46,451 nt of DNA. It comes from a virus. The position numbers and the translations under genes were made by a program. The DNA is taken from positions 1-46,451 of IMG/VR virus record IMGVR_UViG_3300025151_000066, one strand, 5' to 3'. Shown piece by piece: positions 12,118 through 36,768 of the stretch. Positions within the stretch are counted from its first letter, which is position 1, and the number at the start of each line of letters is the position of its first letter. A model generated the notes under the pieces. The model had not been told where the DNA came from, did no database searches, and saw only the letters and a list, made by a program, of their open reading frames with translations.

Positions 12118-12122
12118 TTACT

Positions 12123-14088: not shown

Positions 14089-17000
14089 ATGAGCGAAAGA
14101 ATAACAAATAGCTTTGAGGGAGGAATGGCTTCTGACCTTGATGATAAAATAAAAGCTACCAATACTTATGAGCTTTCTGTTAACGGAAGGCTTATTTACA
14201 ATGAAGACGGTTCATTAAGTTGGGAAAACGCTAAAGGTAATAAGTATTCTGTTTCTAACTATGATGACAGATACAAGACAGTAGGTGTATGTGAATTTGA
14301 GAATGTAGTAATTGTATTCTCTAAGTACACTAACGGAGCTACAACTTATGACGAGATTGGTTACATTACTTTTAACTTCGATGGTTTTGGTGTTTATAGA
14401 ATACTGCATAACGATACTACAGACACACTTAACAAAGAATTAAACTTTAGTTTAGACCATCCTATACAAGCAGTTCCATTTAAAGAATCTGACGAGCTTA
14501 TTAGAGCTTATTTTACGGATGATTTTAATGAGCCTAGAGTGTTTACATTCAAATTAAAAGATGATGGAACATTCGACACTTATGAAGCTATAACAACCTC
14601 TGAGTTCTATATGAACTTAGTTCCAGACTTCTCAATGGGAGAAATAGAGTATAGAGGATTAACTGATGGTTCTTTAAGAACAGGTATATACCAATACTCT
14701 TATAGATTAAAAACATTAGATGGATACCAAACTCCATGGATTCCAATAACATTTCCTATTGTTGTAACAGGTAGAAAAGCTCTTGAGAACAACGAAAGAT
14801 ACGGAATGAAAGATGTTGATGTTGTAGGTGCTACGGGTACAGTTATACAAGTCAACAATATAGATACTAGGTATAATGAAATAGAAATTGCTTACGTACA
14901 CACTATTGAAGAAACAGGTGTAAAAGAAGCAGGTATATTTTATGACTCTTTAATAAATGGTCAATCACAAATAAATACACAACACGTATCTGTAGAGAAT
15001 ATACAACCAATAGAAGTTACAGAACTAGCTGACCTTAAGGATGTTATAAAGAAAGCAAGAACGCTTCAGATAAAAGATAATAGATTGTGGTTTGGTAATA
15101 CAGAAGGAAAAGCAACATTTAGTATTCCTGACGACGTATTAGATAACTTCTATGTAGAACCAGAGTTTAGAGGACTACCTACTGACTTTTATGCTAGGAG
15201 ACCTTACGGAAGAGTTTCTGATATAAACGGATTTCAAGCTGTTAAAACAGAGTTAGGTACAGTGCCTACGTTTCAAAGGTCTTATGAAAAGCACGGACTT
15301 TCAGACACTTACGCTGTTAAAGAAAGATTAATAGGAGACAGCAGCAATAAAGGTATAGACGATTATTATAATTATCAAGGCTCTCAAGTATGCCACTCAT
15401 TTACAGGTTATTTCAGAGGCGAAACATATAGATTTGCAGTTGTGTTTTTTGACAAAAAAGGTTATCCATTTTTTGCAAAACACTTAGCTGATGTAAGGAT
15501 GCCACATAATACACATGGTATTTATCAAAGTGATATAAATGATTTATATGGTGGAGGGGATACAGAGGTTAGAAATTATCTAAACAAGCTTACAGCTACT
15601 AGAGTTAAAGATGATGGAACTACTCAGTATAAAGAAGTTGAAGTTGGTCACATGGGAGCTATACCTACTGAAACTAACGCAGACTATTCAGCAGAAGCAT
15701 TAGTTACTTCAGACGGAGACAGAAGACTATTTGGTCAATCATTACTAAGACACGGGGGTCAAGCTTCTGTAGAATCTAAATATCATATAGCACACAATGC
15801 TCCTGTAAATGCTTCAAATATATATAGAGCTACTGATTTACCCTTTAACAATCCTAATGACATAGGAACAACTTCTCAAAGAACAGTAACAAATACATAT
15901 ACTTCAAATGACTTAGCCTTTACTAGGATAATGGGTTTAAGATTTGGTGGTATTGATTTATCTGTAGAAATAGATGGAACTCCTTTATACGACCTTATTA
16001 GTGGGTTAATGATTGTAAGAGCAGACAGAGTTGGTGCTGATGAGCAAATTAAAGACACAGGTATAGTTGTTAATTGTCAAGACGCAGGTTCTAATGTTGA
16101 TGGAAAGAAAAAAGCATGGGTTCATAGTAACCCTGTTCTTGGTGGTGCTAACGCATCTAAAAATAAAACATCATTTGTGTCTAGAGATGACGGTGGAGAT
16201 GCAGTTAAAACCGTTGACTTATCGCCTCACGTTTATACGTTTGATGGTGTTAATCATAAAATAAGTGGAGAAGCACCTGAGTTTAAAGCAGGGCTTAGTA
16301 AACTAAGAGTTGAGTATATATGCGATGTTAGTAATCCATTTTTCTCTTCTAATGCTGATGAAGGATATAGAGCCTTAGCTACACAAGCAATACAAGAAAG
16401 ACACTATATATCTAAGAACTTAAACACTTACAACACAAGAGTTCTTACTCAAGACGTTAATAATAGATGGATTAGAGGTAACAAGCTTACTGATATAACT
16501 AAAATTGGAGAGATAACCAATGGTGGTAATAACTATGGTTACTTTGATGATTACCTAGTTGGTACAGAAGCTTGGGTTGGCTTAGTACAAGGAGATAATT
16601 TACCTGTTGATTCGTTAGACTTTGACACAGCCTATAAAGGTAGTTTAGGTGGTATAGGTAGTAATGTTGATGATGATAGATGGTATAGAGGTAGATACAA
16701 CAGTGATTCATTGTTACTTACTGCAGCTACTCCTTATCTTTCTGCATTTGGTCAAATACAAGGTTCAGGAGGTTCTGTAGATTTAAACCAACACTTATCT
16801 TTTTATGTAGCGTCTATTGTAGAACCTAATTCAAGCCCTTACGGAGGTGCTAAACTAGAAACAGTTCAGAACACTAGATTCCATACTACAGGGCATTTCT
16901 TAGCTATTACAGACCAACTAAAAGATGATATTAAGAATGGTGGTTATTTACTTAACGAAATGGAAGTATGGGGAGGCGATTGCTACTTAGACTTATTTTC

Positions 17001-21500: not shown

Positions 21501-22159
21501 CACCAATGCCTCAACAAAGAAAGTCTGATGCTTGGCAAGAGCAAATGGCTAGAATGAAGGATAGAACACAGTTAGGTTTAGACCCTGCTACTAAAACATT
21601 ATACCAAAGAAATGCAGAAAGAACTTATGCTTACGATGTTTCTAATATAGGTAGAGTGGCTAGTTCTGCAAATGCAGCATTAGGTTCTTTAGGTAGTGCT
21701 TCAGAAAGAAAGTATCAAGCAGATATGATGATGGCTGCACAAGATGCTTCTTTAAGAGAGGCTCATCAAGCTCAGTACATGAACGCTATGGAAAAGGATG
21801 AAGCCATGACTCAAGAGCATTGGTTAAGAAACGTTTATAACGAGGCTGACAGAAAAAGAGAACTCAAAGCAGGTCTTACAGGGCAGTTTGTAAGTAACCT
21901 TAGAGATAATTTAAAATACTATGAAGAATACATAGACCCTAGTTCTATGAGAAATCAGTATATGCAATCTATAATCTCAGAAACTCAAGCTAAAGAACAG
22001 TCACACCTAAGTTCGCAATACGCTCAATTAAGACAAACAGGTATGTCTGAGGAAAACGCTATAGCTAGAGTTTACGGAGAACAACAGTCTCAGCCTGAAT
22101 CAAAAGTAGAAACAGGGGTTTTTGGAGGACTTATTAATAACATATTTAATAAGAAATAA
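18560..22159 (+). CDS. Internal virion protein with lambda-R-like lysozyme domain
   Basis: 1199 residues. Residues about 60-170 are hydrophobic and Gly/Ala-rich. Residues about 235-315 are a phage module with STVRMASSEADGKYYAFPTLF and FDTEDEASYFAEGGWK. Residues 324-390 carry GGKIP...GGVM and a Lys-rich stretch. Residues about 412-560 resemble the lambda endolysin (GH104 lytic transglycosylase): AESESTGNYN (E423/E425 as catalytic candidates), AIGRYQIIGSTMDEL (459-473), then a segment with ENQDKLGLALLEKRG and WAGLP. The remainder is a long Glu/Lys/Gln coiled coil. It probably cuts peptidoglycan during DNA entry and forms part of the ejection conduit. The gene lies next to two further internal proteins, like T7 gp14-16. 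Confidence 0.8.
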   Translation: MATFRSSQEINRQLPTQYAQRKKATGMQVFANWATGLDRFGRKKDTNILGDVARGVVNMATLGGLQMATRKYYRGSAGGVGAIQAANQAQGKAYVDLALTAATLGTGALAGKLGTEATKQAGKQGIKSAIGNAIQQGKNLATSYLSADGTKNLSKDFVQNLIAKGGDTKFIEFAKGWALENKDELIKKGVDKGLEKAKEVYKEQFGNEPTMQPRGAQQVFAGSTDYDSYLNTPKINPEYVKKARNMRQGARQNEDGSVSTVRMASSEADGKYYAFPTLFQKEDGSWYEVEDPFAEAKKKGELFEFDTEDEASYFAEGGWKPKEMKTGGKIPNHYPSHKEGGVMAIDKKTGKPVAEVEGGEEVFSVKDTKKMESFMKKGDTKGLGKFVNAVMKKHRKNPSPTYAATGGVIGLAANLLDMISKAESESTGNYNAIVHSKTGDSGLTGMTIAEARKKHGAKAIGRYQIIGSTMDELVDKLGIDPNTFVLTEENQDKLGLALLEKRGFKDFEAGKITKEQFQNNLAQEWAGLPTTSGKSYYEGDEHGNKATVTLDYIDKVLANEGGESDKKEDVSFLTTLNQSIKEAGKGFSEPINEKRKQVVEREESIKELEKKWKNSEGLDDETKDRIYKDLQNERLSKLLLQKEILDLKKERNDKINEVFDLEENKSKLFEEYDKGNITEEDYKKIRSELNQFSERNALFNQKYQELTDRYEAQKQARFPYDNAADYEAQNRLKEGTTKYLTAEEAARKDSAMAEEQGLPAFTEEEIQERIQEYKEEYGEQGVPAAGEAVGTRLPTGEEIEGGLAQMGDYTQRTELGVEGEASEYTKEKSRFVEGTKDDPFKKVKREMAVQGRTPEELEGEMQYLEQEFSSVNNVQDYDYLSTVLDEYALADEASFELDKEGKGDGTGQEEEYVPVDSESTLEDDYNLGNGNFDKETFDNYVRTKKEERQALGLENVYNKLGGLDAVLQATGMAAAYKFATAPMPQQRKSDAWQEQMARMKDRTQLGLDPATKTLYQRNAERTYAYDVSNIGRVASSANAALGSLGSASERKYQADMMMAAQDASLREAHQAQYMNAMEKDEAMTQEHWLRNVYNEADRKRELKAGLTGQFVSNLRDNLKYYEEYIDPSSMRNQYMQSIISETQAKEQSHLSSQYAQLRQTGMSEENAIARVYGEQQSQPESKVETGVFGGLINNIFNKK

Positions 22160-22160
22160 A

Positions 22161-23792
22161 ATGAGTAAATATTTAAACACCAATCTTTTTAACGCAATAG
22201 CTCAACAAAGCAAGTACGACCAAAAGGTCGCTATGAAAGAGCGTGAAATGGAGTATGCTTCTAGAATGGAGCAACGTGCTGAAAGACGTTTAAATGCTCA
22301 GTTAATGGCTCAAGAAACTGTCAATCAATCTTTAGAGCAATTAAACGAAAAGCTTCAAACAATGCACCCTAACGACTTAGCAAGGGTTAGGAATTTGGAA
22401 AAACAAGCAAGACAGTCTATATACCAAGGAATTAGAAATGCCAATGGAGACGTTAATCAATTCTTATTAGAAGGTGGTTTTAATACTATTAGAGAGTATA
22501 AGCAAAATGTTTTGCAGTCTGACGAAGTAGCAAGAGGTTTAAGAAATAAAGAGCAGTTTAATTTAATACAAGAAGCTTTATCAGATAATAAATTAGTACA
22601 TGATATGCCTGTTACTTTAACAACTAAAGACGGTAAGCAGGTTCAAAAGATGGTGTCTACTAAAGAAGCTATACAGCTTTTTAACGACAACATGATACAA
22701 GATATAAGTTTCACAGGTGCAGAAGAAAGAGTTGAGGTAAATTTAGAAGACTTTCAAGAAATTGTAAACCCAAACAATCCTTTTAGTAGCGCTCCTGTGT
22801 CTCAAGAAGCTTTTTATAATTACTTAGTTTCAAAAGGACAAGGAAGAGATGTTGCTAGACAAAGACTTAGTGAGTTTGAAACAGACCAATATGGAAACGT
22901 AAAAGGTGCTTTCTATGGAATGAAAAACGGAACTAATTATAGAAGTAATGGTGCTAGATGGAACAACTACAAAACTACTAAGGGAGGTACTTATAGTAAG
23001 AATTTACCTTATCTGAATGTATTTAATGAGTTTAACAATCTTACTTTGGCTAGACCAATGGAACAAACAGATTGGATTTACGATGAAGGTCATGGAAGAA
23101 TGACTATTGAAGAAAGAACAACTAATCCTGCTTTTCAAGATGCTATATCTTCTTTCTTTGGCTTACAAAAAAGCAATGTAGAAGGAAGTCCTTATGTTGG
23201 TTCTTTTCAAAATGCTGTTTCTATACAAAACTTAAGCAACGGAAAAGAGTTAGGTTTAACTGCTGACGAATATCAACTAGTTGGATTAGAGAATATAGTT
23301 GTAGCTACTGACCAAGAAACAGGAGAAACACAATATTTTCAACAAGCAAAAATTAGAATTTCTGAAGAAACAATGGAAGACAAGTTTGATGAGCCTTGGT
23401 GGGGAGGTACTTCTAAACTTTGGGGAGCTGTAACACAAGATGTTGAAGACGAATTAGGAGAGGGAAGGATTATAACAGTAGGTGTTAGTTTACCTTCAGA
23501 TGCTGTAAGTAGACAGTTAATTAGTGAAGAAGCTGCTGTAGAACAAGGCACTGTAGTAGGTGGAGCTTACCAACAAAACTATATGGGTTCTTATGTACAA
23601 GCAGACCCTAACTCAATGCAAAGACCTGAGGATATGATAATGGGCAATAATCAACAAATGGCAATGCAACAATCTTCAAATAATTTACTATTTTTAGAAC
23701 AGCAAAATTTGTTCAACCAAATGAAGCAACAAACAAACGCTTCCGACCAAGAAATATATAAAGCAATTCAAGAAATTTATAGAAATAAATAG
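22161..23792 (+). CDS. Internal virion (ejection) protein
   Basis: 543 residues from ATG 22161, one base after the previous stop. The longer frame from 22122 would overlap the upstream gene and is not preferred. The first 115 residues are a long amphipathic helix rich in Met, Gln, Arg and Glu. Then comes a mixed domain (about 120-420). The last 60 residues are Gln/Asn/Met-rich and low complexity. No enzymatic motif is visible. It lies between the lysozyme protein and the giant polyprotein, so it is most likely packaged in the head and ejected. Confidence 0.65.
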   Translation: MSKYLNTNLFNAIAQQSKYDQKVAMKEREMEYASRMEQRAERRLNAQLMAQETVNQSLEQLNEKLQTMHPNDLARVRNLEKQARQSIYQGIRNANGDVNQFLLEGGFNTIREYKQNVLQSDEVARGLRNKEQFNLIQEALSDNKLVHDMPVTLTTKDGKQVQKMVSTKEAIQLFNDNMIQDISFTGAEERVEVNLEDFQEIVNPNNPFSSAPVSQEAFYNYLVSKGQGRDVARQRLSEFETDQYGNVKGAFYGMKNGTNYRSNGARWNNYKTTKGGTYSKNLPYLNVFNEFNNLTLARPMEQTDWIYDEGHGRMTIEERTTNPAFQDAISSFFGLQKSNVEGSPYVGSFQNAVSIQNLSNGKELGLTADEYQLVGLENIVVATDQETGETQYFQQAKIRISEETMEDKFDEPWWGGTSKLWGAVTQDVEDELGEGRIITVGVSLPSDAVSRQLISEEAAVEQGTVVGGAYQQNYMGSYVQADPNSMQRPEDMIMGNNQQMAMQQSSNNLLFLEQQNLFNQMKQQTNASDQEIYKAIQEIYRNK

Positions 23793-23796
23793 CACT

Positions 23797-26700
23797 ATGG
23801 AAGAAAATTTCAACCCTATAGATGAAAGAACTAAAAATTTATTTCAAGAAACTTCAAAAGAAACACAAGGTTCAAGTCAGTCAGACTTAGTTTCTCTTGC
23901 GCAACAATTAAGAAGCGAGAACGCTCAAAAGCAAATGGAGAGCGGAATAACAGGAGATACACAAGTAACTACTGCAGGTAGTCCTTCTAGAGAATTTATT
24001 GAAGCTCAAGAAAAAGGATTTTCTGAAACACCATATTACGAAAGATACGGTGGTTCTGCATGGGGAGATTTTTACGATAGTGTTGTAAACGCAGGTATCA
24101 TAAGAACTGCTCGTGGTATAGCCGACATACCTGCCTATGTTAGTGCGTTGGCAATGAAAGACATGGGTCAACCTGTTTCAGGAAGTTGGGTAGAAGGTTG
24201 GATGCAAGGAACTAAAGATTGGGCTGATAGAAATGAAGGTTTTGTTTCTGCTATAGGTAATAAATCTTTTTTTGAAACTGGGGATATTCGTTCTTTATCA
24301 GCAGGTCTAGGACAAGGTATTGGCTCTATGATTCCAATGGTAGCAGCTATGGCAGCAACTGCAGCAACAGGTGGTGCAGCAGCACCATTAATAACAGGTG
24401 TTTCTACTGGTACTTTAGCCTCTGTTAGTGCTACTGCTATAAACATGATGCCCTCTTTAGTTGACGAAGGATTAGAAAACGGTTTGTCTCACGAACAGTC
24501 TATTAGCTTAGGTATGACTCTTGCACCTATAATAGGTATGATGGAAAAACTAGGTTTAGAAGCTGTTATTCAAGCAGGTCTTAAGCCTGTAACAGGTAAG
24601 GTTTCTAAAGAGGTTTTTAAAAGAAGTTTTCAGAATTTAGCTAAAAAAGGAGTTACAAAAGAGAACTTTAAAGACTCTGTTAAAGTAGCAATGGGAGAGA
24701 TTGCTGAAAACTATCAAAAAGAATTGATTGCTAAAGGTGTTTCTGGAGCTACAAGAAAAGCTATAGGTAAAGAGATAGGGTTAAGAACTAGAGATGTTGC
24801 TTCTAAGTTTGCAGAAGGTGCTATAGCAGAAGCAGGAATGGAATCTCTTCAGTCTTTAGTTGAAACAGCAGGTAAGGCTATGTTCGATAAATACGGAGCT
24901 AGTTACGGTGCTGAAGCAGGTAAAGGTAAGTTTGGTGTTGATTTCTTTAGTAAAGAAACATTCATGAACGCTCTTGAAGAAGGGTTTTATGGAGGTTTAA
25001 TAGGAGGTACTTTTTCTACTGGCGCTAGATTAAGCCAAGGAATGAAGAGAGAAACTATTTACAGTGCTTTAGATTCAGCTAAGAAAAGAGGAAAGCTAGA
25101 TGAAGAGTATGTTAAGATGAAAGAATCTATTAACAACTTAGCTACTAGAAACCAAAACAATCCAGAGTCAGAAAAAGAATTAGGAGACTTAAACAGAATA
25201 TTAGATAAGACTAAGCAAATGGTTGATGTTATGCCTGTGGAAATAAGCAGTCCAGACGCAAGACATCAAATATTCCAATTATCTAATATGTATGAGAGTT
25301 TAGTTGAAGAAGAAAAAACTCTTGACGTAGAAGGTACTTTACCTGCTATGGTTGATATTGTTAAAGCAAGAAGAAATAAATTAGAAAAAAGAAAAGCCTC
25401 TGTTAAACAAGCAATTAACGATATATACAATAGAAGACAGGCTGTTGATTTACAAGAAAAAGATATAAAAGGAAACAGAAAGTATTTTATCGAACAAATA
25501 GAAGAAGAGCTTCCTGCTACAATGCCTCCTGTTGATGACTATACAGACGTACCTTCTTTAACAGAGGAAGAAACATCTTTATTAAAGACAGAGTTAGACG
25601 ACGTTGCTACATATACACAAGACGAAGACATGTCTTATGTTAATGATTCTGCAGAACAAGTTCATAAAGACTTTTATGGAGAAGAAGCTTCATCTAGATT
25701 ACGTGGTATAGTTGATGACCTGTCAATGGATGAAGACCTTTACGAAGATGGATTTAACGTAAGAAAAGACTTAAATAAAAAACAAAGAGACGGCTTAGTT
25801 GATAAGCTAGTAACTGCTAGAAGGTCTGTCGTTGAAATGATGGAACAGACTGATGATGAAGCTGTTCAAACACAATTAAAGAACTTTGATAACTTATTAA
25901 GGTCTAAGATACAAGAAGCTAAAGCTTTAGACGTAATAGAAGATAAACAACTAGACGGAGTTAAAGCTATAGAAGGACAAAAACAACTAGATTCAAAACA
26001 AAAAAGAATAGGAGATGAGCAAGTTAAAAGCACAATTAAACCTTCACTTGATGACACAAGAACAAAGAAAGACACTCAAGCAACAGAAGGAACAACCAAA
26101 AGAACAGACGAAGGAACAACCGAAGGAAGGACTACTAAAAAGGATATTCAAAAGGTAGATAAGAAAGACTCTTCCCCTCAGCCAACCCCTGCGACCACTG
26201 ACAGTTTGAAGACTGCGAAGTCTAAGGGGAAGGCTGAAACCTTGACTAATGATGAAATTTTAGCATACGCTAGAGATGCTAAGACTCGTGATTTTAAAAG
26301 CGCTAGGCATGTAGACAATGCTTATAATAAGTATATTAATCCTAATCCTGCTGCTGTTAATGTAACTAACAAAGAGCAAATAGACGAGCTTAATAAGTTT
26401 TATGCTGAAACTACAGCAGAAGAAAGAGCAGAAATAGCTGAAGAAAATAAAGCTCAAAAAGAAAATACTTTAAGACTTAAAAAGGAAGCTGAAGAAAAGG
26501 CTAAAATTTCTGAAGAAGAAAAACTTAAAAAAGAAATAGAGGAAGCTGATAAAAAAGCAAGAGAGGCTGCTAAGAAACAACAAGAAGAAGTAGAAGATAC
26601 TGAGGTAGATGCAGAAGAAAACTTTGATTTTATAAGTGACGAAAGTATAGACAATACTGATGCACAAGCTTTTGCTGATTGGAATAGCAAGAAGTCTAAG

Positions 26701-29700
26701 TTTCAATCTTCTATAAAGCTAATAAAAGATAACCCTATTGAGTTTCAAGCAATGCTTGACGAGGTTAAAAAGATATTCCCTAATGTCGATATAAAGGTAT
26801 TAGAGAAAGTATTTGGTATGGGTGGTATCGAACTTGTTGGTAGGGTATATGACAATATAATTGAATTATCTGAAGACAAGGCAGGTCAAGAAGCTTTATT
26901 CCACGAACTAGCACACAAATTTTCTCCTTTACTTAGTGGAACTAAACTTTGGAATAAAGGTCTTGACTTGATTAAAGACACTAAGTACTTTGAAACAGCA
27001 AAAGAACTATATCCTGACGAGACAATAGAAGAACAAGCTGAAGAAGCATTAGTTCAGTTAATTGCTGAAAAGTCGTTAGACACCATTAAAACAAGAATGG
27101 GAGATAGCACTTTTAAAAAGATAAAAGCTTGGTTAAAGCAATTCTGGAACAAGATTAAATACATGTTAGGTAAAGCTGACACCAATACTATAGCAGAGAT
27201 AGCAGCATTTGACCTTACAATGAGAACTAAGCCTTATAAAGGTTCTGGTTTACAGTTTGCAGAAAAGGCTACTAAGTATGACCAAAAGACAGCAGGTGCA
27301 ATACAAAGCATTATTAACTTAGCAGGTAATGCTAAACTATATGCTGATATAAAAGGAGCTAACCCTTCTGCTATTTTTAGAATAAGCATTGAAAAGTTTA
27401 AAGAAGAAGCTTATCCTGACCTTAGTATAAAGGAGTTTAAGAATAAGTTTGCTAGACACATTTTAAAAGCTAAGAAAGAACTTCTTTCTGATGTAGTAAC
27501 TACAGAGCAAGAGTTGTTAGCTGAAATGATGCCTGAGATAGATGAGTATAGAAACGGAAGCTTTTTAGATGGAGGTGCTGAATTAGACAAGAAGATAAGA
27601 GAGGTATTAGGTACTGCTTACGATTCTTCTTTTAACAAAGTATCTGAAGATGCTATATACGGTGTTGCAATACAAGCAGCAAAGATATCTAGAGACCCAG
27701 ATAAGTTTTTAGAATCTTTAAACACTTTTGCAAGTAACTCTACTTCTGCTATAGATAAAGCTACTGCTGAAGTATTATCAAGTAAATTAGCTTCTTTACC
27801 TATTACTGTAAGAAAACCTATAATAGCAGGTCTTACTTCTTTAGTTAATGTAGAGTTTGCTAAACTATATACAGATAAAAAAGGTTCTAGGACTATTAAG
27901 CTTTCTAATGCAAAGTTTAAACCTGCTGAAATATCTAAAGCTTTACTTGATTTAATAAAGGCAAATGCTCTTACTAACATAGAGTCTAAGACTTTTAAAG
28001 ATGCTTTTTCGGGTCTAGGTAAGTCAATAGAAATACTTAGCAAAGAAAAGAATTATAAAAACGCAGCAATTCAAATAGATAAAGCTATTCAGCATATTAG
28101 AACTCTTACGGGTATTCCTTTTGAAACGTCTTGGTTTTTGCCTCCTATGGAAGAAAAGCTAACAGAACAACAAAAGACTGATATACTGATTAAAAACTTA
28201 TCTAATTTTCATAAAGCTATTTCTAAGCCTGTTTATAAGTACAGACAACTTGTTTCACAAACAGCTACTACAGAAAGAAGCAAAGCGTTTATTGCTAGAA
28301 AGTCTAATCAAGTATTTAATTCTAATTCTGCTTATGACTTAAACGATGCTATAAGAGATATGTCTAAAAAGATTGCTGACTCTTATGGTGCTAAGACTGT
28401 ATTTAGAAATGCTATGAATAACCAACAGTCTTCTCAAAGAGTTGGTGGTTGGTTTCATAAAGTACTTTCTTCAGTACCTCTTTTAAAAGGTCTTAACTTA
28501 TCTCAAAGAAAAGACTTAAAAGCGTTTGGCGATTCTTATGTAAAAGTTTTTGAAGACAACATAGAAGCAGCTTCTAAGAAAGGGGAATCTACTTTTTGGC
28601 AATTAGACGGTATTCATGATATAAACACAAATGAAAGGTTAGATTATCAAAAAATGTCTCTTGAACAAAAAACAGACTTTGAAATAAGAACAATGCTTCA
28701 GTCTGCTAAAGAGGTAAAAGGAGGTTTTGTTTATAAAAACTCTATGGGAGTTATATCTACAAATGATTACAAAATGTTTGTAGACGTTCCTTTCTTAGAC
28801 CTTGACAAAGCTAAAGAGATTTATAACAAACTAGAAAAAACTCACGACAATTCACTTCCTTCTGATAAAGGAGATAGCAACCCAATTCATGCTGAGAAAA
28901 AAAGAATAAGAGAAGTCATAGGGGAAGATTACGGAAACATGTTACGTAAGTTTAATGAGACAGGAAAAAAGGCTCATATATACGATTACATAGAAGCTTA
29001 CGGAGGTTTAATAGGACAAGAAGTTCAGCAAAAAGATTATAGAGGTACTGAAGAAGAAGTTCTTCTTGGTATCGCTTCTGAAATAAATAATCAACTAAGA
29101 GAACAAGCAGAAGCACTAGCTTATAACAACGCTGTCAATCAAGTGTTTTTAAAGAGCGTTACTATGGGTAATGTTTCTGATGCAGCAAACTTTAATGACG
29201 AAAAAAGAAGTAAAGGTTCTTTATCTCCGTTTCTTAATTTAGACCTTAGAATTAAAAATAGAACTGATTTAAAAAACAAAAAAGGAGAGCCTCGTAAAAC
29301 AGGACTAACTAAAACTCCTAAGGCAAAAATTGTAGTTTTACAAGACATTGAAACACAAGCTTCTAAAGAAGCTAGAGAGATGGCAAAAGCTAGGGGAGAA
29401 GAGTTACCAAAACCAACTTATGCTACCGACGCTGCTTCTTACTTTAATGATTTTATAGTTAATGCTATAGACCAAACGGGCGGAGATTTAATTAATTACG
29501 GACTAAACTATAAGCCCATAATTAATCAAACAAACGAAAAGGGAGAGATTCTTTATATGAAAACTGCTTCTAGAGGTTTTGATATAAATGTAAATAGCAC
29601 ACCACAAGAGGTTGACGCTTACATAGAAAAGTACCATACCTTAAACGGGGAAATAGACAGACACGGAATGATTGCTAAAGTTATGTATGAAATGTCTAAA

Positions 29701-32700
29701 GCTAATCCCGACACCCCTATTATATTTGCTTTCGAGTCTTCAATGAAAGGTACACAGACTTGGAAAAAAGGAGGCGTAAGTATAGATGATGTATACAACG
29801 GTGGTAATATAAATCTTAATGCTGCAGAGTTTATAGAAGAAGAATTAACAGGGTTTGGTATTCAGTTTAACAAGTATAAAGAGGTTAATCAGTACGAAGG
29901 CTTAGACGAGAACAACGAACCTAAGTACGGAAGAAAAGCCACTACTGCTGCTGCACCTATACAGTTAATAGCTTCTTTAATGGAGAATCCTCCACAAGGA
30001 TTAGAAAAACAAGCTAAAGCGTTTCAAGATTTATTAGCACAAGCAACTGACTTTAAACTACAAAGAGCTTTAAAAAGAGTTGATAATAAAAAGGCATTAC
30101 TTCAAGAAGCTGTTAAATCTTCTAAAGGAATGAGTCAATGGGCTAAAGACGCGCTAGAACAGTTTATATCTGGAGAAGAAGTTCCTAAGCTTGTTCATCA
30201 AGATTTAATTAATTCTTTACAAGGATACTTAGCTTCTGTATTTAATGACTCTATTAGACATAGGTTTAGTGGTGCAGAACTCACTCAAGACACAGACCCT
30301 TCTAATCAACTTAAATACCACACAACAGTAACAGACCAAGGCACTGTAAACTTTGCAGAGGTAAAAGTACCTGAAGGATTTGCTAACATGGGAGAGGAAC
30401 TTATTACTGTAAGGATTCCTATGAGTAATAAAATCAACGTAATGGTTACTAAGGTTGTAGGTTTTACAGACCCTAAATCTAGCGTTGTGTTAGTTCCTGA
30501 AGGCTGGATAGACGCTTCTAATGCAGATAATGACGGAGATTCTAAATTTACTTGGAGAAAGTCAAAAGGAAGTGGAGCTTTAGATGTTATTTATAATAAA
30601 ATGTTTAAAGCCGCTAAAGACCTTTTATTACACCCTTCAATGATAGAAGAAGGTAAAGGTTATAAACAACAACTAGATACTAAAAAGGTTTTAGATTCTT
30701 CTAATAAAGCAAATGAAGAACTAGGAACAAAAGAGCAAAAAATATCTTCTGTTGGTATTATTGGAGAAAACCAAAAATCACACGCTTTCCAAGACTCTAG
30801 TGTTAGTATTGGTTTATATGCTGTAATAGGTAAAACATTAAATGTATTAAGTGGTTTAAACTCTAAGTTTCTTAATCCTTTAGTTCTTCCTACTGCTGCT
30901 CCTAGAGTAACAGGAATTAAACTAAGAACTAAAAGAGATACAAAGCTTCAAGCAGGTGCAGCAAAAATATCTACAGACAAGCAATTTGAAATAGCTTCTA
31001 TATTACAATTAGCTCTTGATGATGCAGGTTCTGATACAAACTTTTATGAAACAGGATTGACTAAAGAAAACGCAGGTGCTTCTGCTATGTTCTTAACTGT
31101 TGGTTACGAACTTAAAGATGTACTAAAGCTAGTTAAGTCTCCTGTAATTAAAGATTATCTTAAACAGAAAAAAGAAGGAAAAGGAGTAGAGTATACAAAC
31201 GAGTTAAAAGCTAAAACTTCTGACCAAGGTAAAAAAGACTTTGAGCTTTTAGAAAGCTATCAAGGTGCGGAGATTGCGTTTAGAGCTTTTTCTCATATTC
31301 AAAACATAGTTGGTCTTGATTCTGGTGTTCCTTACGGTGTAGGTGCTGTAGGTAAGATAAATGAAAGTATAAGAAAAGTACAAGAAGAAAAATTTGATAT
31401 TCAGTTTGAACAAAACATTCTGGAGAATCCTGTTATATCTTCTAGAGTAAATGTTTTAAATCAATTTAACGCCACTCAAAACGACTTATTCTCTACTAAA
31501 GAATTAAGTGCTAAAGAACAAAGAATAGCTAGTGACCTTATTAACTCTATTCAAAACAAAACTTCAGATGCAGAAGTTACTAGAGCAATGCAAAGAACTT
31601 TTAGTAATTATATAGCAAGAAGTTCTTCTAAGTATAGTTATGACAAAGCTAGTTTAAATGAGCTTATAGAATATGTTTACGATAGAGTTTTATTAGGAAA
31701 GGCTAAAGGGCAAAAGTTCTTTAATTATATACAAAGAGAAACGCAAACAGATAAAAACGGTAATATTTCAGAGATTACTGCTATTCAAGCTGTAGCTACA
31801 TCTGTGTTACCTGAACTTAACATAAAAGAAAACACTAATGTAGACCAAGAAGCTATTAAGGAAATGTTTAACGAGATTTCTGAGTCTGATAGAAAAGCTC
31901 TTATTGAGTTTGCTAAAGTGTTTGAAGGACTATCTAATGGTTCTCATAACATAACTACTTTATTACCAATAGATGTATTAGAGGACTTCCAATCTAAAAC
32001 AGAAGAACTTGTTGCTAATGATGTTTCTATGTTTTCAGACCAAGTTGTTCTAAACTTCTTGTTTGATAATATTTCTGCTTTAAAAGAATACACTGGTCAA
32101 GGTATAGACTTAGACACCATAGAAGATAAAGCTGTAGACGATATGCCTCGTTACTTCAAGGTTAAAAACAAGCTTGGAGAGATTGAGGTTTTTCAAAGAC
32201 AGATAGGAGAAAAAGGACAGCTTACAGATAAGGCTCTTAGATTAGGTAAAGTTGAGTCAGTAAATATTAACGGAAAAACTGTTAACGTTTACAATACTTA
32301 TGGACAACAAGCTAAAGCTAAGTTCCGTAAGCCTGAAAACAAATCTACAGTTACTAACGTTGAGTCAAACAAACAAGCTTCACAAGCAACTAAGATAACT
32401 AAAACTGTTCCTAAACTTTCTAGGAAAATTAGAGTTAGAAACGCTATTGCTAAACTAAGTCCTAATCAAAGAGTTATAATGACTTCTGAAAAAGATTTTA
32501 GAAATGTTTCTTTTCCAGAGCAAGAAGCTTCTTACAAACCTAAAGGAACATGGTATGGACTAGGTGATTCTTGGAGTGAATGGGTGCAAGGAAATATGCC
32601 TCAATGGGAAACAGATTATGCTCATGTTTTAGAAATAGATAGTTCTAGAATTTTAAAGATTAAAAACTTCAACGAACTTCTTGAGTTTACTGAGAAGTAT

Positions 32701-35700
32701 GTTGGAAATAAAAAGGTTAGTCGACTAACAGGAAGGGCTTTTAATCAAGATATTGATTGGGCTAAAGTTAAACAAGATTACGCAGGTATTGAAATAGCAC
32801 CTTATATAGCTGAAGGAAGACTAAATACTTTAACAAGTTGGTATTACACTTGGGATGTTGCTTCTGGTGTTATATGGGATAGTTCTGCTGTTAAATCCTC
32901 TAGAGAAATACTAGGCGATTCTGAAACAGATACAACTACAGATGATAAGTTATATCAAGTAGCAGGAGAAGCTAAAACAGAAAGAGTAAACAGAGCTACT
33001 AAGAGATTACTTAGAAGGTTGTCTAATAAGTTTGGTGTACAGTTTACTTTTGTCAATGACCCTGATGCTAAGTTTACAGGTTACTATGACTCTGCAAACA
33101 ATGTAGTTGTTATTAACGAAGCTAAGGTAAGACCCGATACTGCGTTCCACGAATTTGCACACCCGTTTATTGCTTCTATAAAACAAAGCAACCCAAGCCT
33201 TTATGCAAGTCTTGTAAACGAAATAAACGCAACAGAGGAAGGAAAAGCTGTATTAGATAAAGTAGCTAAAGAACAACCTAACCTAAATAAAGAACAACAA
33301 GTAGAGGAAGCTATTGTACAAATGCTAGGAGAACTTGCTACAGAAAAAGCAGGTAAACTACCTACAGGATTAAGAGCTGCATTACAAAACTTATGGGATA
33401 CTATTAAGCAGATTGTATCTGAACTATTTGGTACTAAGAAAGAAGTAATTGCAGAGAAGCTTTCTAACGACACTTCTTTAAGTCAGTTAGCTGATATGTT
33501 AGTTGATGATACAAAGGTTGTTATAGATAAGCAAAACAACTCTAAAGCTAAATCTATACTTAATAAGTTAGCCAACTCAACAGAGATGACTAGAAAGATG
33601 TTTAATGAAACAGTAGAGGTAGTTAAGCAGTCTGATTACATGTCTAATGATTTAAAACAAACAAGCTCTAAACTTACTAAAGCAGGTTTCTTATCTCATG
33701 ATGGATATGTTGTAAAACAAAAGTCAGACACTGTGCCTACTGCAGAAGTACTTTCAGTATCTGTACCAATGGACATGGCTAATTGGATGGCTAAGATAAG
33801 ACAGGAATTTCCTGATGCAGAGATAGTTGGTAAGCATGATTCTAGAGTAGACAACTATGCAATGTATGAAGTTAATGCACAAGGAGAAACAATATTTGTT
33901 TACAAACCATTAACTCCTGAAGCAGCTTCTTTAGATACTTTAGTTAACTTAAACCTTAAGTATCAAATAGATGTAGATACTTCTACTGTTAAGAATCCAA
34001 ATACTGATGATAAGTTCTTCTCTGGAGAAGCTATTGATTTAGATAAGTTTGCAACTAAAGATGTTAATAAACCTTCTGGGCAACAACGTCTTATAGCTTT
34101 AAAACAAGCTTTATATAAAGACTTAACTGAAAAGTATAAAGGTATATTAGATGATGACGCAATAAAGCGTGAGCTTGTTAGAGAGGTTATTAAAAAAGCT
34201 AAAGATATTTACAATAGTGCTACTAAAGAAGGTTACTTAAAAGGAGACCTATCTGGTGTAGTAGATTCAAAGTATATAGACCTATTACAAGAAGATATAA
34301 ATTTAGCTGTTTATATTTTTAATAATATGGATAAGGATATTTCTGAAGCTACCTATGACCCTAGATATACAATAGCTTATGAGAACTTATTAAAAATGAT
34401 GGCTCTTGCAGAGCATATTGAAAACACTAAAGATGTTATTACAAGTAACAATAAAGGAGTTAGCACTTCTTCGGTTGTTTCTGATATAATGGATAGTGCT
34501 TTTAAGACTAGAAACACAAGAGCAGAGTTCTTTAGCAAGATTCCTGTTTTAGGAAGTATATATAAGTATATATCTCAGAAAGCTAAAAAGGTTAAGAAAG
34601 TATTCTATGACAGTTTAACTCCTGAAAACTTCTCTAAGTTTATTACAGGTAAGAAAGCTTCAATGCTTAACGCATTAGTTTACAAGCAAATAAACGAAGC
34701 AGAAGGTAATGCTCAAGTAATTACAGAAGGAGCTTGGGACGCTTTTCGTGAAAAGGTAGGAGAAGAGAAGTTACAAGAAATGAAAAAGTATTCTTCTTTC
34801 TTAAATGACGAAGGAAGAGTTAAGATGCTAACCTTAGAAGGAGGTGGAGAAATTACTTATGCTCAAGCAATGAACATTTACTTAAGTCTTAAACAAGAAG
34901 ATATAAGAAGTAAAGTTTCAAAGACAGGTCTTAAGATTAATTACTTAGACTCTAAGACAGAGCAAAAGAAGTCTACTACAATATCTCCTGATAAGTTTAT
35001 GGCGCAAATGGAGAACGCTATTAAAAAGAATCCAGACTTAGTTATACTTGAAGAAGGTACTAGAGCTATGTTAGATTACTTGTATGGAGAAGTAAACAAA
35101 ACCTCTAACAAGACTTTAGGTGTAGATATTAACAATATGCCTAACTACTTCCCTACAAGGTTTGGTAGTATGGTTAGTGGTATTGATTCTATTAGAAACA
35201 TTGAAGACTTCTCTGCTATTAAAGAGAGAACTACAGCAATGAGAAATGGTCTTATAGCTACCGATGTATTCCAAGCATTAGATAACTATAACAGACAAGC
35301 TTCTAAGTATGCTGCATTTGCAGAACCTATAAGCAATATAAGAAAGACTGCTGCTGCATTACAGAAAAACGAAACTTATAACTTAGACCCAGAAGGTAAC
35401 CAAGCTATAGTATCGTATATGGAGGATATGATTACAAGCGTTACTAATCATGGTGTGTTTATTAACTCATCAGATAAGATGTTTGCTAATAAAATAAACA
35501 AGTTCATGAACAACTTTAGTTTAGCTGTTCTTGGAATGAACCCATGGGTAATGTTTAAACAGTCATCTTCTTTATTTTCTGCAGCTTCTGAACTAGGTAT
35601 GTCTAATATAGCATCTAATAGCAAGGGTAGACAAGCTTACACAAGAATACTTAAAGGTCTTAAGAATGTTAAACTTAAAGATATTCAAGCAGGTAAGCTA

Positions 35701-36768
35701 GACTTAAATGACCCTACCATAATAGAGCTTATGGATTTAGACCCTATGTTTAGAAAAAGATTTGAAGGGGAGATAGATAGAGAGCAAGGGGATTATAAAT
35801 CACAGTCTGTTAATAACTTAACAGGTAAAGACACAGGTCAAAAAGTATTTGGTAAGAAACTACCTTTAGGTAATTCTATGAACGGTATTAAGGTATTTGA
35901 TGCTGCTACTATTGCTTGGATTTACGAAGCAGTAAAAGAAGAGATATCTAAAACTATACCTGATACAGAGTCTAAGGCTTTTAAAGACGCTGTAAGAAAA
36001 AGAATGACAGAGGTAGTAAACAGAACACAGCCTACTTATGGTGTTGCTACTAGAACAGGATTAGGTAGAAGCTCTGACCCTATATTAAGATTATTTACAA
36101 TGTTCTCTTCTCAAAGAGCTAAGAACATGAACATCTTATTAGAGTCTATGTTTGATTATATCCATAACCCTGACGAAAGAAGTATAAAGAAACTTAAGAC
36201 AGCAATGGCAACAGTAGGTGTAATGTCTTCTTTATCTATAGCCGCAATAGATATGCTTAAGTATAGTTTAATGGGTTACGATGATGACGATGACAGCACT
36301 GTCTTAGGAGAACTAGGAACTAGAACAGCAATGACTACGCTAGGTAACTTCTACTTTGTTGGTCAAGCAGCACAAATGATTGAGGCTCACGCTACTAACA
36401 AACCTTTTGGTAAAACTATAGAACACCCAATGTTCCAAACAGTAGGTTATGGAGCTGCGGCTGTGGCACACTTATCAAAAGGAGAATTGATAAAATCATT
36501 TGATAACGTAGCAAGAGCTACAATGCTTGGAACAGGAATACCTTATACTCCGTATTCAATGACAAGAAGGGGTGTTATGAATTACTTTGAAGACCCTAAG
36601 GCTAAGGATTACTTAACAAGCGATGAGAAAAAAACTTGGAAAGAAATTCAAGAAGAGAAGAAGTTAAGAAGAGAAGAAAAGAAAGGAGCTATGTCTTACG
36701 AACAAAAAGAAGAAAGGGCAAAGCAACAAGCTGAAAAAATGAGAAAACAAATTTCTAAATACAACTAG
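23797..36768 (+). CDS. Giant 4323-residue virion polyprotein with RNA-polymerase-like core and two zincin modules
   Basis: One uninterrupted frame of 12,972 bases, 28% of the window. Order of parts: hydrophobic Gly/Ala-rich region (about 165-265, 395-410); charged Lys/Glu region (about 430-960); zincin 1, HELAH at 1036-1040; RNA-polymerase-like core (about 1770-2470) with ESSMK (K1984), RIP (2206-2208) and NADNDGD (2242-2248); WDVASG module (about 2890-3040); zincin 2, HEFAH at 3118-3122; long helical region; C-terminal module (about 3900-4290) with two hydrophobic helices and a basic tail. Known relatives in kind are the giant ejected or polyvalent phage proteins. I infer packaging in the head and ejection, with early transcription by the polymerase core. 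The gene lies 4 bases after the internal-protein gene. Confidence 0.8.
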   Translation: MEENFNPIDERTKNLFQETSKETQGSSQSDLVSLAQQLRSENAQKQMESGITGDTQVTTAGSPSREFIEAQEKGFSETPYYERYGGSAWGDFYDSVVNAGIIRTARGIADIPAYVSALAMKDMGQPVSGSWVEGWMQGTKDWADRNEGFVSAIGNKSFFETGDIRSLSAGLGQGIGSMIPMVAAMAATAATGGAAAPLITGVSTGTLASVSATAINMMPSLVDEGLENGLSHEQSISLGMTLAPIIGMMEKLGLEAVIQAGLKPVTGKVSKEVFKRSFQNLAKKGVTKENFKDSVKVAMGEIAENYQKELIAKGVSGATRKAIGKEIGLRTRDVASKFAEGAIAEAGMESLQSLVETAGKAMFDKYGASYGAEAGKGKFGVDFFSKETFMNALEEGFYGGLIGGTFSTGARLSQGMKRETIYSALDSAKKRGKLDEEYVKMKESINNLATRNQNNPESEKELGDLNRILDKTKQMVDVMPVEISSPDARHQIFQLSNMYESLVEEEKTLDVEGTLPAMVDIVKARRNKLEKRKASVKQAINDIYNRRQAVDLQEKDIKGNRKYFIEQIEEELPATMPPVDDYTDVPSLTEEETSLLKTELDDVATYTQDEDMSYVNDSAEQVHKDFYGEEASSRLRGIVDDLSMDEDLYEDGFNVRKDLNKKQRDGLVDKLVTARRSVVEMMEQTDDEAVQTQLKNFDNLLRSKIQEAKALDVIEDKQLDGVKAIEGQKQLDSKQKRIGDEQVKSTIKPSLDDTRTKKDTQATEGTTKRTDEGTTEGRTTKKDIQKVDKKDSSPQPTPATTDSLKTAKSKGKAETLTNDEILAYARDAKTRDFKSARHVDNAYNKYINPNPAAVNVTNKEQIDELNKFYAETTAEERAEIAEENKAQKENTLRLKKEAEEKAKISEEEKLKKEIEEADKKAREAAKKQQEEVEDTEVDAEENFDFISDESIDNTDAQAFADWNSKKSKFQSSIKLIKDNPIEFQAMLDEVKKIFPNVDIKVLEKVFGMGGIELVGRVYDNIIELSEDKAGQEALFHELAHKFSPLLSGTKLWNKGLDLIKDTKYFETAKELYPDETIEEQAEEALVQLIAEKSLDTIKTRMGDSTFKKIKAWLKQFWNKIKYMLGKADTNTIAEIAAFDLTMRTKPYKGSGLQFAEKATKYDQKTAGAIQSIINLAGNAKLYADIKGANPSAIFRISIEKFKEEAYPDLSIKEFKNKFARHILKAKKELLSDVVTTEQELLAEMMPEIDEYRNGSFLDGGAELDKKIREVLGTAYDSSFNKVSEDAIYGVAIQAAKISRDPDKFLESLNTFASNSTSAIDKATAEVLSSKLASLPITVRKPIIAGLTSLVNVEFAKLYTDKKGSRTIKLSNAKFKPAEISKALLDLIKANALTNIESKTFKDAFSGLGKSIEILSKEKNYKNAAIQIDKAIQHIRTLTGIPFETSWFLPPMEEKLTEQQKTDILIKNLSNFHKAISKPVYKYRQLVSQTATTERSKAFIARKSNQVFNSNSAYDLNDAIRDMSKKIADSYGAKTVFRNAMNNQQSSQRVGGWFHKVLSSVPLLKGLNLSQRKDLKAFGDSYVKVFEDNIEAASKKGESTFWQLDGIHDINTNERLDYQKMSLEQKTDFEIRTMLQSAKEVKGGFVYKNSMGVISTNDYKMFVDVPFLDLDKAKEIYNKLEKTHDNSLPSDKGDSNPIHAEKKRIREVIGEDYGNMLRKFNETGKKAHIYDYIEAYGGLIGQEVQQKDYRGTEEEVLLGIASEINNQLREQAEALAYNNAVNQVFLKSVTMGNVSDAANFNDEKRSKGSLSPFLNLDLRIKNRTDLKNKKGEPRKTGLTKTPKAKIVVLQDIETQASKEAREMAKARGEELPKPTYATDAASYFNDFIVNAIDQTGGDLINYGLNYKPIINQTNEKGEILYMKTASRGFDINVNSTPQEVDAYIEKYHTLNGEIDRHGMIAKVMYEMSKANPDTPIIFAFESSMKGTQTWKKGGVSIDDVYNGGNINLNAAEFIEEELTGFGIQFNKYKEVNQYEGLDENNEPKYGRKATTAAAPIQLIASLMENPPQGLEKQAKAFQDLLAQATDFKLQRALKRVDNKKALLQEAVKSSKGMSQWAKDALEQFISGEEVPKLVHQDLINSLQGYLASVFNDSIRHRFSGAELTQDTDPSNQLKYHTTVTDQGTVNFAEVKVPEGFANMGEELITVRIPMSNKINVMVTKVVGFTDPKSSVVLVPEGWIDASNADNDGDSKFTWRKSKGSGALDVIYNKMFKAAKDLLLHPSMIEEGKGYKQQLDTKKVLDSSNKANEELGTKEQKISSVGIIGENQKSHAFQDSSVSIGLYAVIGKTLNVLSGLNSKFLNPLVLPTAAPRVTGIKLRTKRDTKLQAGAAKISTDKQFEIASILQLALDDAGSDTNFYETGLTKENAGASAMFLTVGYELKDVLKLVKSPVIKDYLKQKKEGKGVEYTNELKAKTSDQGKKDFELLESYQGAEIAFRAFSHIQNIVGLDSGVPYGVGAVGKINESIRKVQEEKFDIQFEQNILENPVISSRVNVLNQFNATQNDLFSTKELSAKEQRIASDLINSIQNKTSDAEVTRAMQRTFSNYIARSSSKYSYDKASLNELIEYVYDRVLLGKAKGQKFFNYIQRETQTDKNGNISEITAIQAVATSVLPELNIKENTNVDQEAIKEMFNEISESDRKALIEFAKVFEGLSNGSHNITTLLPIDVLEDFQSKTEELVANDVSMFSDQVVLNFLFDNISALKEYTGQGIDLDTIEDKAVDDMPRYFKVKNKLGEIEVFQRQIGEKGQLTDKALRLGKVESVNINGKTVNVYNTYGQQAKAKFRKPENKSTVTNVESNKQASQATKITKTVPKLSRKIRVRNAIAKLSPNQRVIMTSEKDFRNVSFPEQEASYKPKGTWYGLGDSWSEWVQGNMPQWETDYAHVLEIDSSRILKIKNFNELLEFTEKYVGNKKVSRLTGRAFNQDIDWAKVKQDYAGIEIAPYIAEGRLNTLTSWYYTWDVASGVIWDSSAVKSSREILGDSETDTTTDDKLYQVAGEAKTERVNRATKRLLRRLSNKFGVQFTFVNDPDAKFTGYYDSANNVVVINEAKVRPDTAFHEFAHPFIASIKQSNPSLYASLVNEINATEEGKAVLDKVAKEQPNLNKEQQVEEAIVQMLGELATEKAGKLPTGLRAALQNLWDTIKQIVSELFGTKKEVIAEKLSNDTSLSQLADMLVDDTKVVIDKQNNSKAKSILNKLANSTEMTRKMFNETVEVVKQSDYMSNDLKQTSSKLTKAGFLSHDGYVVKQKSDTVPTAEVLSVSVPMDMANWMAKIRQEFPDAEIVGKHDSRVDNYAMYEVNAQGETIFVYKPLTPEAASLDTLVNLNLKYQIDVDTSTVKNPNTDDKFFSGEAIDLDKFATKDVNKPSGQQRLIALKQALYKDLTEKYKGILDDDAIKRELVREVIKKAKDIYNSATKEGYLKGDLSGVVDSKYIDLLQEDINLAVYIFNNMDKDISEATYDPRYTIAYENLLKMMALAEHIENTKDVITSNNKGVSTSSVVSDIMDSAFKTRNTRAEFFSKIPVLGSIYKYISQKAKKVKKVFYDSLTPENFSKFITGKKASMLNALVYKQINEAEGNAQVITEGAWDAFREKVGEEKLQEMKKYSSFLNDEGRVKMLTLEGGGEITYAQAMNIYLSLKQEDIRSKVSKTGLKINYLDSKTEQKKSTTISPDKFMAQMENAIKKNPDLVILEEGTRAMLDYLYGEVNKTSNKTLGVDINNMPNYFPTRFGSMVSGIDSIRNIEDFSAIKERTTAMRNGLIATDVFQALDNYNRQASKYAAFAEPISNIRKTAAALQKNETYNLDPEGNQAIVSYMEDMITSVTNHGVFINSSDKMFANKINKFMNNFSLAVLGMNPWVMFKQSSSLFSAASELGMSNIASNSKGRQAYTRILKGLKNVKLKDIQAGKLDLNDPTIIELMDLDPMFRKRFEGEIDREQGDYKSQSVNNLTGKDTGQKVFGKKLPLGNSMNGIKVFDAATIAWIYEAVKEEISKTIPDTESKAFKDAVRKRMTEVVNRTQPTYGVATRTGLGRSSDPILRLFTMFSSQRAKNMNILLESMFDYIHNPDERSIKKLKTAMATVGVMSSLSIAAIDMLKYSLMGYDDDDDSTVLGELGTRTAMTTLGNFYFVGQAAQMIEAHATNKPFGKTIEHPMFQTVGYGAAAVAHLSKGELIKSFDNVARATMLGTGIPYTPYSMTRRGVMNYFEDPKAKDYLTSDEKKTWKEIQEEKKLRREEKKGAMSYEQKEERAKQQAEKMRKQISKYN
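26860..27190 (+). other. Zincin protease module 1 of the polyprotein
   Basis: Residues about 1022-1131. ALFHELAHKF gives the HExxH zinc motif (H1036, E1037, H1040). Downstream TIEEQAEEALVQLIAE (1076-1091) offers the third zinc ligand Glu (E1082 or E1083), as in gluzincin-type phage proteases. It is followed by an amphipathic Trp/Lys helix (IKAWLKQFWNKIKYMLG, 1109-1125). All catalytic residues appear intact. It precedes the polymerase-like core and could cut the polyprotein at a site N-terminal of that core. Confidence 0.7.
29200..31210 (+). other. Two-barrel RNA polymerase-like core of the polyprotein
   Basis: Residues about 1802-2471. First-barrel-like part: TPIIFAFESSMKGTQ with K1984, then GFGIQFNKYKE (2019-2029) and an A/P/Q segment TAAAPIQLIASLM. 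Second-barrel-like part: VRIPMSNKINVMVTKVVGF (2205-2223) and SVVLVPEGWIDASNADNDGDSKF (split here as VLVPEGWIDAS and NADNDGD, 2231-2248), where D2244, D2246 and D2248 would hold the metal. Then a helical segment with LQLALDDAG (2403-2411) and SPVIKDYL (2448-2455). The spacing and order RxP, strand, NADxDGD match cellular and phage RNA polymerases (NADFDGD). The usual Phe is replaced by Asn. Confidence 0.75.
32480..32920 (+). other. WDVASG module of the polyprotein (possible ADP-ribosyltransferase-like fold)
   Basis: Residues about 2895-3041. YKPKGTWYGLGDSWSEW (2913-2929), then VLEIDSSRILKI, then DWAKVKQDYAGIEIAPY and WYYTWDVASGVIWD (3015-3028). I recall this pattern as a conserved domain in bacterial and phage proteins and suspect an ADP-ribosyltransferase-like fold, but I cannot point to a complete catalytic triad. 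Function therefore open. Confidence 0.4.
33010..33460 (+). other. Zincin protease module 2 of the polyprotein
   Basis: Residues about 3071-3221. It has a strand pair with GYYDSANNVVVINEAKV, then AFHEFAHPF (H3118, E3119, H3122), then QVEEAIVQMLGELA with E3170/E3171 as third ligand and an amphipathic helix (LQNLWDTIKQIVSELFG). The layout mirrors module 1, about 2080 residues earlier, but the sequences have diverged, so the two are either an old duplication or independent acquisitions. Confidence 0.7.
35490..36650 (+). other. C-terminal membrane-seeking module of the polyprotein
   Basis: Residues about 3899-4285. It contains GMNPWVMFKQSSSLFSA (about 3913-3929), NRTQPTYG (4075-4082) and RLFTMFSSQRAKNMN, a pattern I associate with C-terminal domains of large phage polyvalent proteins. 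A hydrophobic helix (MATVGVMSSLSIAAIDML, 4137-4154) is followed by the acid run DDDDD (4162-4166) and a second weaker hydrophobic segment. Likely role: contact with the host membrane or with the portal during ejection. Confidence 0.5.

Follow-up and report, generated by a model that had tools for sequence, protein, structure and literature searches.

What does a virus encode in a single uninterrupted open reading frame (ORF) of 4,323 codons? Such a frame occupies positions 23797–36768 on the plus strand of the window, by which we mean the whole 46,451-base stretch of DNA analysed here, which comprises an entire virus record and is probably a genome fragment. The frame starts with ATG and contains neither an internal stop nor any Ns, and the log-probability of an open run this long is about -363 at the base composition of the window. 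An earlier interpretation made from the letters alone (the sequence-only reading) had described one intact 4,323-residue frame, and both the ORF check and full-length orthologs bear this out; because orthologs of 3,973 and 4,479 amino acids exist in other phages, faulty assembly does not explain the single frame. Within the chain, the motifs HELAH, NADNDGD and HEFAH are found at residues 1036, 2242–2248 and 3118, respectively, together with two weak hydrophobic stretches (residues 178–200 and 4133–4155). A Pfam search with the whole chain and a sequence search of the PDB gave no match. The evidence set out below makes it very probable that the protein is a crAss-like injected two-barrel RNA polymerase with a three-in-one build, that is, a giant virion RNA polymerase formed as a collinear fusion of crAss-type polymerase-associated parts.

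The genes upstream of the giant frame, all on the plus strand, indicate the kind of phage to which it belongs. They encode a crAss-like terminase large subunit (3184–5067; phrog_6681, E 1e-75; phi14:2 gp94, E 5.5e-17), a crAss-like portal protein (5067–7325; phi14:2 portal, 4.7e-48, the portal matches listed being from crAss-like phages), the major capsid protein (8400–9770; phrog_11589, E 1.2e-51; phi14:2 gp91, E 4.3e-10), a homologue of the phi14:2 virion ring protein gp74 (12084–12818; E 8.6e-12), a weakly matched IHF-like protein at the gene position equivalent to that of phi14:2 gp73 (12799–13257; E 0.011), a homologue of the phi14:2 tail tubular protein gp72 (13379–14086; E 1.4e-14) and a homologue of the phi14:2 muzzle/tail protein gp71 (14089–18534; E 3.5e-21). 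The Crassvirales set (TerL, portal, major capsid protein, ring protein, IHF, tail tubular protein and muzzle/stabilisation protein) is therefore present in a fixed order, with IHF matched at E 0.011 only, and this order is identical to that of phi14:2; the structural gene block is also kept in 12 related contigs. Judged by its genes, the phage is crAss-related, belonging either to the Crassvirales or to a sister group. Elsewhere in the window, positions 40428–43175 encode a 915-residue protein in which four stretches resemble LamG (Laminin_G_3) and the C-terminus matches phrog_347.

Between the muzzle gene and the giant frame lie two genes for putative cargo proteins, also on the plus strand, one of 1,199 amino acids with a lysozyme-like domain (18560–22159; phrog_34252 endolysin, E 3.6e-10) and one of 556 amino acids (22122–23792) that adjoins the polymerase gene and is kept there in relatives. 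The sequence-only reading had placed the frame directly behind a virion lysozyme and an internal protein, in a context of virion genes; the two genes are as it described, and the order of crAss-type virion and cargo genes is that of phi14:2. In the phi14:2 record gp65, gp66 and gp67 carry MS/MS virion annotations, and gp47, gp49 and gp50 of crAss001 have been detected in virions by mass spectrometry (PMC10172136). Because these homologues are virion-borne and the upstream genes follow the phi14:2 order, the giant chain is likely to be packaged in virions.

The central part of the chain (residues 1834–2603, positions 29296–31605, plus strand) was assigned as a two-barrel RNA polymerase core by profile searches, profile–profile comparison and an AlphaFold2 model. 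When a profile of the clade's core was run unfiltered against every ORF of phi14:2, crAss001 and cr271_1 and against four unrelated giant ORFs, crAss001 gp50 (4.7e-19), cr271_1 gp48 (2.1e-16) and phi14:2 gp66 (4.2e-9) ranked highest, with the next match at 0.0065. These three ORFs are the annotated or implied polymerases, and the decoys, cellular-type beta-prime ORFs, were not picked by the profile. Comparison of the core with gp50/gp66, profile against profile, gave a probability of 98.2 (E 5e-14). The AlphaFold2 model, which covers residues 1744–2723 (the core being model residues 91–860) and was made from 13 input sequences with a mean pLDDT of 64.7 (moderate confidence), had as its best Foldseek match in the PDB 6vr4, the phi14:2 virion polymerase gp66 (E 2e-13), followed by QDE-1, and its matches in the viral library were mostly crAss-like giant proteins. 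Aligned by VIA, the model matches 6vr4 with Z 21.4 and an rmsd of 3.9 Å over 645 residues (model residues 24–860 against 626–1859 of 6vr4), as compared with Z 11.6 for QDE-1. Its second double-psi barrel (DPBB-A, residues 2154–2289, positions 30256–30663, plus strand) aligns with the largest subunit of Pol II and with bacterial beta-prime at Z of about 9.7–9.9 and rmsd 2.7 over ~100 residues. The sequence-only reading had proposed a two-barrel core at this place, to be abandoned if structure prediction lacked double-psi barrels near residues 1984 and 2242–2248; both barrels are present in the model, and the nearest fold, by profile and model alike, is that of phi14:2 gp66.

The residues expected of such an enzyme are retained. 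Invariant in a ten-sequence core alignment are K-R, three further lysines, R-x-P and DxDGD; Lys1984 of the first barrel (K241 of alignment A5, positions 29746–29748, plus strand) is one of the invariant residues. DxDGD, R-x-P and Lys are kept even among members that are ~20% identical. In the predicted catalytic metal-binding motif DNDGD (residues 2244–2248, positions 30526–30540, plus strand) D, D, G and D are invariant in all relatives, and by eye FESSMK of the window lines up with FESTTK of crAss001 gp50. The features of the two-barrel family are thus found together: DxDxD in a double-psi barrel, a Lys barrel N-terminal to it in the same chain, and homology to gp66/gp50. We conclude from these comparisons and the model that the core (approximately residues 1834–2603) belongs to the crAss-like two-barrel RNA polymerases, with DNA-dependent RNA synthesis as its predicted activity. 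A filtered search of PDB sequences with profile A6 did not return 6vr4, so that the link needs unfiltered, profile or fold comparison, and the core sequences must therefore have drifted far. Profiles A6 and A7 found nothing relevant among PDB sequences, and tblastn searches of phages gave no match for the core of a full-length ortholog (L019) and, for the window core, only one to cr271_1 around the motif.

On either side of the core the chain carries a zincin-like domain. Domain 1 comprises residues 985–1125 (positions 26749–27171, plus strand), with HELAH at 1036–1040 and Glu1083, and is supported by conservation and hhalign; domain 2 comprises residues 3098–3207 (positions 33088–33417, plus strand), with HEFAH at 3118–3122 and Glu3171, and is supported by alignment A7 and a zincin profile. 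H1036, E1037, H1040 and E1083 are identical in 11 of 11 relatives, H84, E85, A87, H88 and E137 are invariant in A7, and Glu1083 and Glu3171 are possible third zinc ligands. The two domains match each other in hhalign with a probability of 98.1 and, on this comparison, are homologous. In the one close pair of phages tested (G017/G043), constraint is strongest on the zincins, where dN/dS is about 0.17 and 0.16; the C-terminal module follows with 0.27, the core with 0.34 and the N-terminus with 0.42. In comparisons with known families, DUF6782 (E 0.0019) and Peptidase_M78 (E 0.024) both fell below cut-offs, and a low-confidence zincin model matched abylysin, jannalysin and PprI in Foldseek at only E 2–5. 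When both zincins were combined in one profile and this was run against every ORF of phi14:2, crAss001, cr271_1 and N4, the best match was crAss001 gp49 (8.3e-5), and the homologue of gp49 in phi14:2, gp65, matched weakly (0.06) at its HEIMH. The two zincin proteases of the sequence-only reading thus hold up as two conserved domains of the HExxH type, with activity predicted. HExxH also occurs elsewhere in crAss-like virion or cargo proteins, at residue 2159 of crAss001 gp47 (where the region matches zincin 1 weakly, probability 17), residue 2199 of cr271_1 gp47 and residues 234 and 461 of phi14:2 gp70.

The ends of the chain are less readily matched. An N-terminal domain with approximate boundaries (about residues 85–260, positions 24049–24576, plus strand), which includes the hydrophobic stretch at 178–200, matches the N-terminus of crAss001 gp47 and phi14:2 gp67 in hhalign with a probability of 75 (E 2.5e-5). 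The mostly helical C-terminal module (residues 3208–4254, positions 33418–36558, plus strand; phrog_28077, E 1.6e-33) gave a poor model (pLDDT 54) with fold matches at noise level, and in profile comparisons showed no similarity to gp49/gp65 outside the zincin region. A likeness to T7 gp16 was considered and set aside: it consists of one VIA row (positions 34600–36765 against the T7 internal core protein 9jyy_I, Z 6.3 over 217 residues), which has no sequence support and lies under the noise level for helical models.

The chain also holds an accessory insert resembling phrog_8582 (residues 2898–3038, positions 32488–32910, plus strand) that has no counterpart in the closest ortholog and received no function from Pfam or PADLOC. 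Its kin are short hypothetical proteins that phages of Mycobacterium, Gordonia and Microbacterium encode as genes of their own, and in Gordonia phage Kudefre the homologue lies a few genes from the terminase genes. In a relative (L157, 6451–7200) an ADP-ribosyltransferase-like insert (ART-PolyVal, E 4.5e-4; DUF3990, E 3.1e-4) follows just after the catalytic barrel, which suggests that this site may accept mobile effector domains.

Relatives were found by a motif scan of viral contigs, which led to L019 (IMGVR_UViG_3300008261_000191), and then by a capsid-protein profile, which led to 72 contigs; the longer of these were read for the polymerase, and further loci came from the core profile. A scan of genome contigs found no relative. 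L019 encodes a full-length ortholog of 3,973 amino acids that is 27–32% identical over nearly the whole chain and has the motifs in unchanged order (HEFSH 1007, NADNDGD 2113, HEFAH 2816). Its neighbouring genes match those of the window, with the capsid protein 69% identical as against 27% for the polymerase. G010 encodes an ortholog of 4,479 amino acids at the equivalent gene position, and on contigs with enough sequence the giant gene follows the muzzle and cargo genes and has HExxH about 1,100–1,350 residues before DxDGD.

Not all of these phages make one chain. Among the contigs read, the one-chain members are the window, G001 and G010 (n = 3), while G012, G017, G043 and G022, like additional loci detected by the core profile, have two adjacent genes, the first encoding zincin 1 and the polymerase (2,794–3,454 amino acids) and the second encoding zincin 2 and the C-terminal module (about 1,090–1,160 amino acids). 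Where measured, the polymerase gene of split loci stops 729–755 residues past DxDGD and the second gene starts 2–21 nt downstream, 130 residues ahead of its HExxH; summed, these spacings match the 874 residues between DxDGD and HExxH in the window. As read from these sequences, the gene boundary of the split phages falls exactly before zincin 2. In a tree, the three fused members form one clade (97/97) and ten split members another (99/99), with a further fused chain, L158, on a long, unsure branch. A far clade (G035, G038 and G045; L119, L123 and L133) has capsid proteins that are 44–46% identical and a polymerase of 3.8k residues with DKDGD and a single HExxH; because G035, G038 and G045 lack a second HExxH, zincin 2 is not universal. 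Fusion and splitting at one junction amount to a natural experiment on the role of the conserved zincins and helical modules that giant virion polymerases carry.

Comparison with phi14:2 led us to the three-in-one reading. There, gp66 provides a single-chain two-barrel core (Z 21.4) with a DxDxD motif and a similar gene position, and because gp67, gp66 and gp65 lie on one strand in the order of the domains of the giant chain, we read the chain as their collinear fusion, with its N-terminal, core and zincin-2 parts as predicted counterparts of gp67, gp66 and gp65. We hold this equation firmly for the core but only tentatively for the ends, because the gp47/gp67 match is weak (probability 75) and the C-terminal module is unlike gp49/gp65 beyond the zincin. 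Phage phi14:2 differs in making three separate proteins, of which gp66 and gp67 lack HExxH; gp65 has it near residue 247 (HEIMH) but shares no detectable likeness with the C-terminal module beyond the zincin region. In crAss001, gp50 is the strongest sequence match of the core (4.7e-19) and the gp47 N-terminus and a zincin-like region of gp49 match weakly, but the genes are separate, gp49 and gp50 lie on the strand opposite gp47, and gp49 lacks HExxH. The 4,620-residue gp48 of cr271_1 is already one chain, with a polymerase fused to a gp49/gp65-like C-terminus, but it lacks HExxH and the large upstream protein gp47 is a separate gene.

Comparable proteins outside the crAss-like phages are also on record. 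Gp96 of P23-45 is a giant (5,002-residue) virion chain in which a two-barrel RNA polymerase is fused to a tape measure protein together with a metallopeptidase and membrane domains, and it is full-size in virions (PMC10770324). It differs in being a siphovirus tape measure of another sequence family with an N-terminal, clamp-less polymerase, and a tape-measure fusion was rejected for the window, which has a podovirus-type crAss block with no tape measure gene among its annotated genes. N4 gp50, which is ejected, likewise has a membrane-seeking N-terminal domain, a polymerase, an HExxH domain and a large helical C-terminal domain (PMC12633501), but its polymerase is T7-like and of unrelated fold; an enzyme of this Schitoviridae type was rejected, as the core here is two-barrel and the core profile had no match to N4 gp50. 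The likeness in layout is striking in view of the unrelated polymerases. An hhalign comparison of the HExxH and helical C-terminal parts with N4 gp50 scored 39.6 at a probability of 7, while the reversed sequence scored 30.4 and shuffled ones no more than 22.8, and the match was lost with a sub-alignment; profile comparisons established no sequence relation to N4 gp50 for the C-terminal or other non-polymerase parts. Among giant virion polymerases that have HExxH or metallopeptidase domains these two are the best studied, and reports describe P23-45 gp96 as uncut and treat N4 gp50 as one chain (PMC10770324; PMC12633501).

Virion RNA polymerase fusions to large proteins have been named for crAss-like and N4-related phages (PMC10770324), and crAss-like RNA polymerase genes of up to ~6,000 amino acids have been reviewed (PMC10136315). 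The giant fused chain is thus less exceptional than the sequence-only reading held: earlier papers already describe virion polymerases of giant size, fusions that join them to other large proteins and a chain of this sort bearing a metallopeptidase (PMC10770324, PMC10136315, PMC12633501), and the protein represents a known injected enzyme in a new arrangement rather than a novel kind of enzyme. As far as the literature and sequence collections compared here show, what is new is a single chain that unites three parts and includes two conserved zincins, its split/fused variation at one junction and the clade in which it occurs. This would add a widespread environmental crAss-related group (the 72 contigs found through the capsid protein) to the phages that inject a polymerase.

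Could the chain instead be a polyprotein that its own zincins cut, either within the particle or once ejected, into an N-terminal ejection part, the polymerase and a zincin with the C-terminal module? Sister phages do encode the same two halves as separate genes, split in the linker before zincin 2, and both zincins, where present, keep HExxH and Glu at low dN/dS. However, phages that already encode the halves separately conserve the zincins just as well, so that cutting at the junction is not their sole task. P23-45 gp96 bears a metallopeptidase and stays full-size in virions (PMC10770324), N4 gp50 likewise speaks against self-cutting as a precedent, and no cleavage site was recognised. We consider such self-processing rather unlikely: because sister phages place a gene boundary before zincin 2 and keep the zincins, cutting there is possible but not needed. 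A further step down in probability is the idea that the chain serves counter-defence, as a "polyvalent" protein of the Iyer/Aravind type, with the polymerase as one among a number of injected effector domains. The swappable modules (the phrog_8582 domain here and the ADP-ribosyltransferase-like insert of L157) would suit such a protein, and metallopeptidases are known in this class (PMC5512222), but the conserved backbone is that of crAss-like transcription cargo and the inserts are sporadic.

We think it improbable that the enzyme is made after infection for later genes and left unpackaged. P23-45 does encode a further enzyme, related in fold, that is not a virion protein (PMC10770324), but the gene here sits in the late structural block right behind the muzzle and cargo genes, like those of the packaged phi14:2 and crAss001 enzymes, and the same chain carries the gp47-like hydrophobic N-terminal domain. 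That the core is a degenerate polymerase, a structural remnant serving as an internal or ejection protein, seems hardly credible. The great divergence of the polymerase, when set against that of the capsid protein in the nearest ortholog, might be taken as a sign of decay, but rapid divergence is known for crAss-like RNA polymerases (PMC7886860), all members of the clade retain DxDGD, R-x-P and Lys, and dN/dS lies well under 1.

If the chain is, as we favour, an injected crAss-like polymerase in three-in-one form, its homologues suggest how it may work. Late in infection it would be packed as cargo near the portal, and on infection of the next cell it would pass through the tail partly unfolded, with the N-terminus leading. 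The N-terminal hydrophobic domain might then help to form, or sit in, an envelope channel, acting with the cargo protein that bears the lysozyme-like domain and whose gene lies two genes upstream. In the cytoplasm the core would refold and transcribe the phage's own early genes, with Asp2244, Asp2246 and Asp2248 holding Mg2+ and Lys1984 acting from the other barrel. The zincins are most likely active proteases, which we would guess function in entry, where they might open or clear away a protein of the envelope or scaffold, or in trimming cargo, and the helical C-terminal module may dock on the polymerase. It is a doubtful idea that the chain and N4 gp50 share one delivery chassis (membrane-seeking N-terminus, polymerase, HExxH zincin and helical C-terminal module), through common descent or strict convergence; if so, the zincin would be needed for entry of the enzyme whatever the polymerase fold, two-barrel here and T7-like in N4.

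Not every giant ORF with the motif letters belongs to this family. Those of L008, L012, L015 and L025 contain NADNDGD and were rejected as members by the core profile; in the giant phage ORFs of L008, L015 and L025 the motif is that of a cellular-type beta-prime (NPLV..GFNADNDGD), and these seem to represent a distinct class of polymerase fusions in phages.
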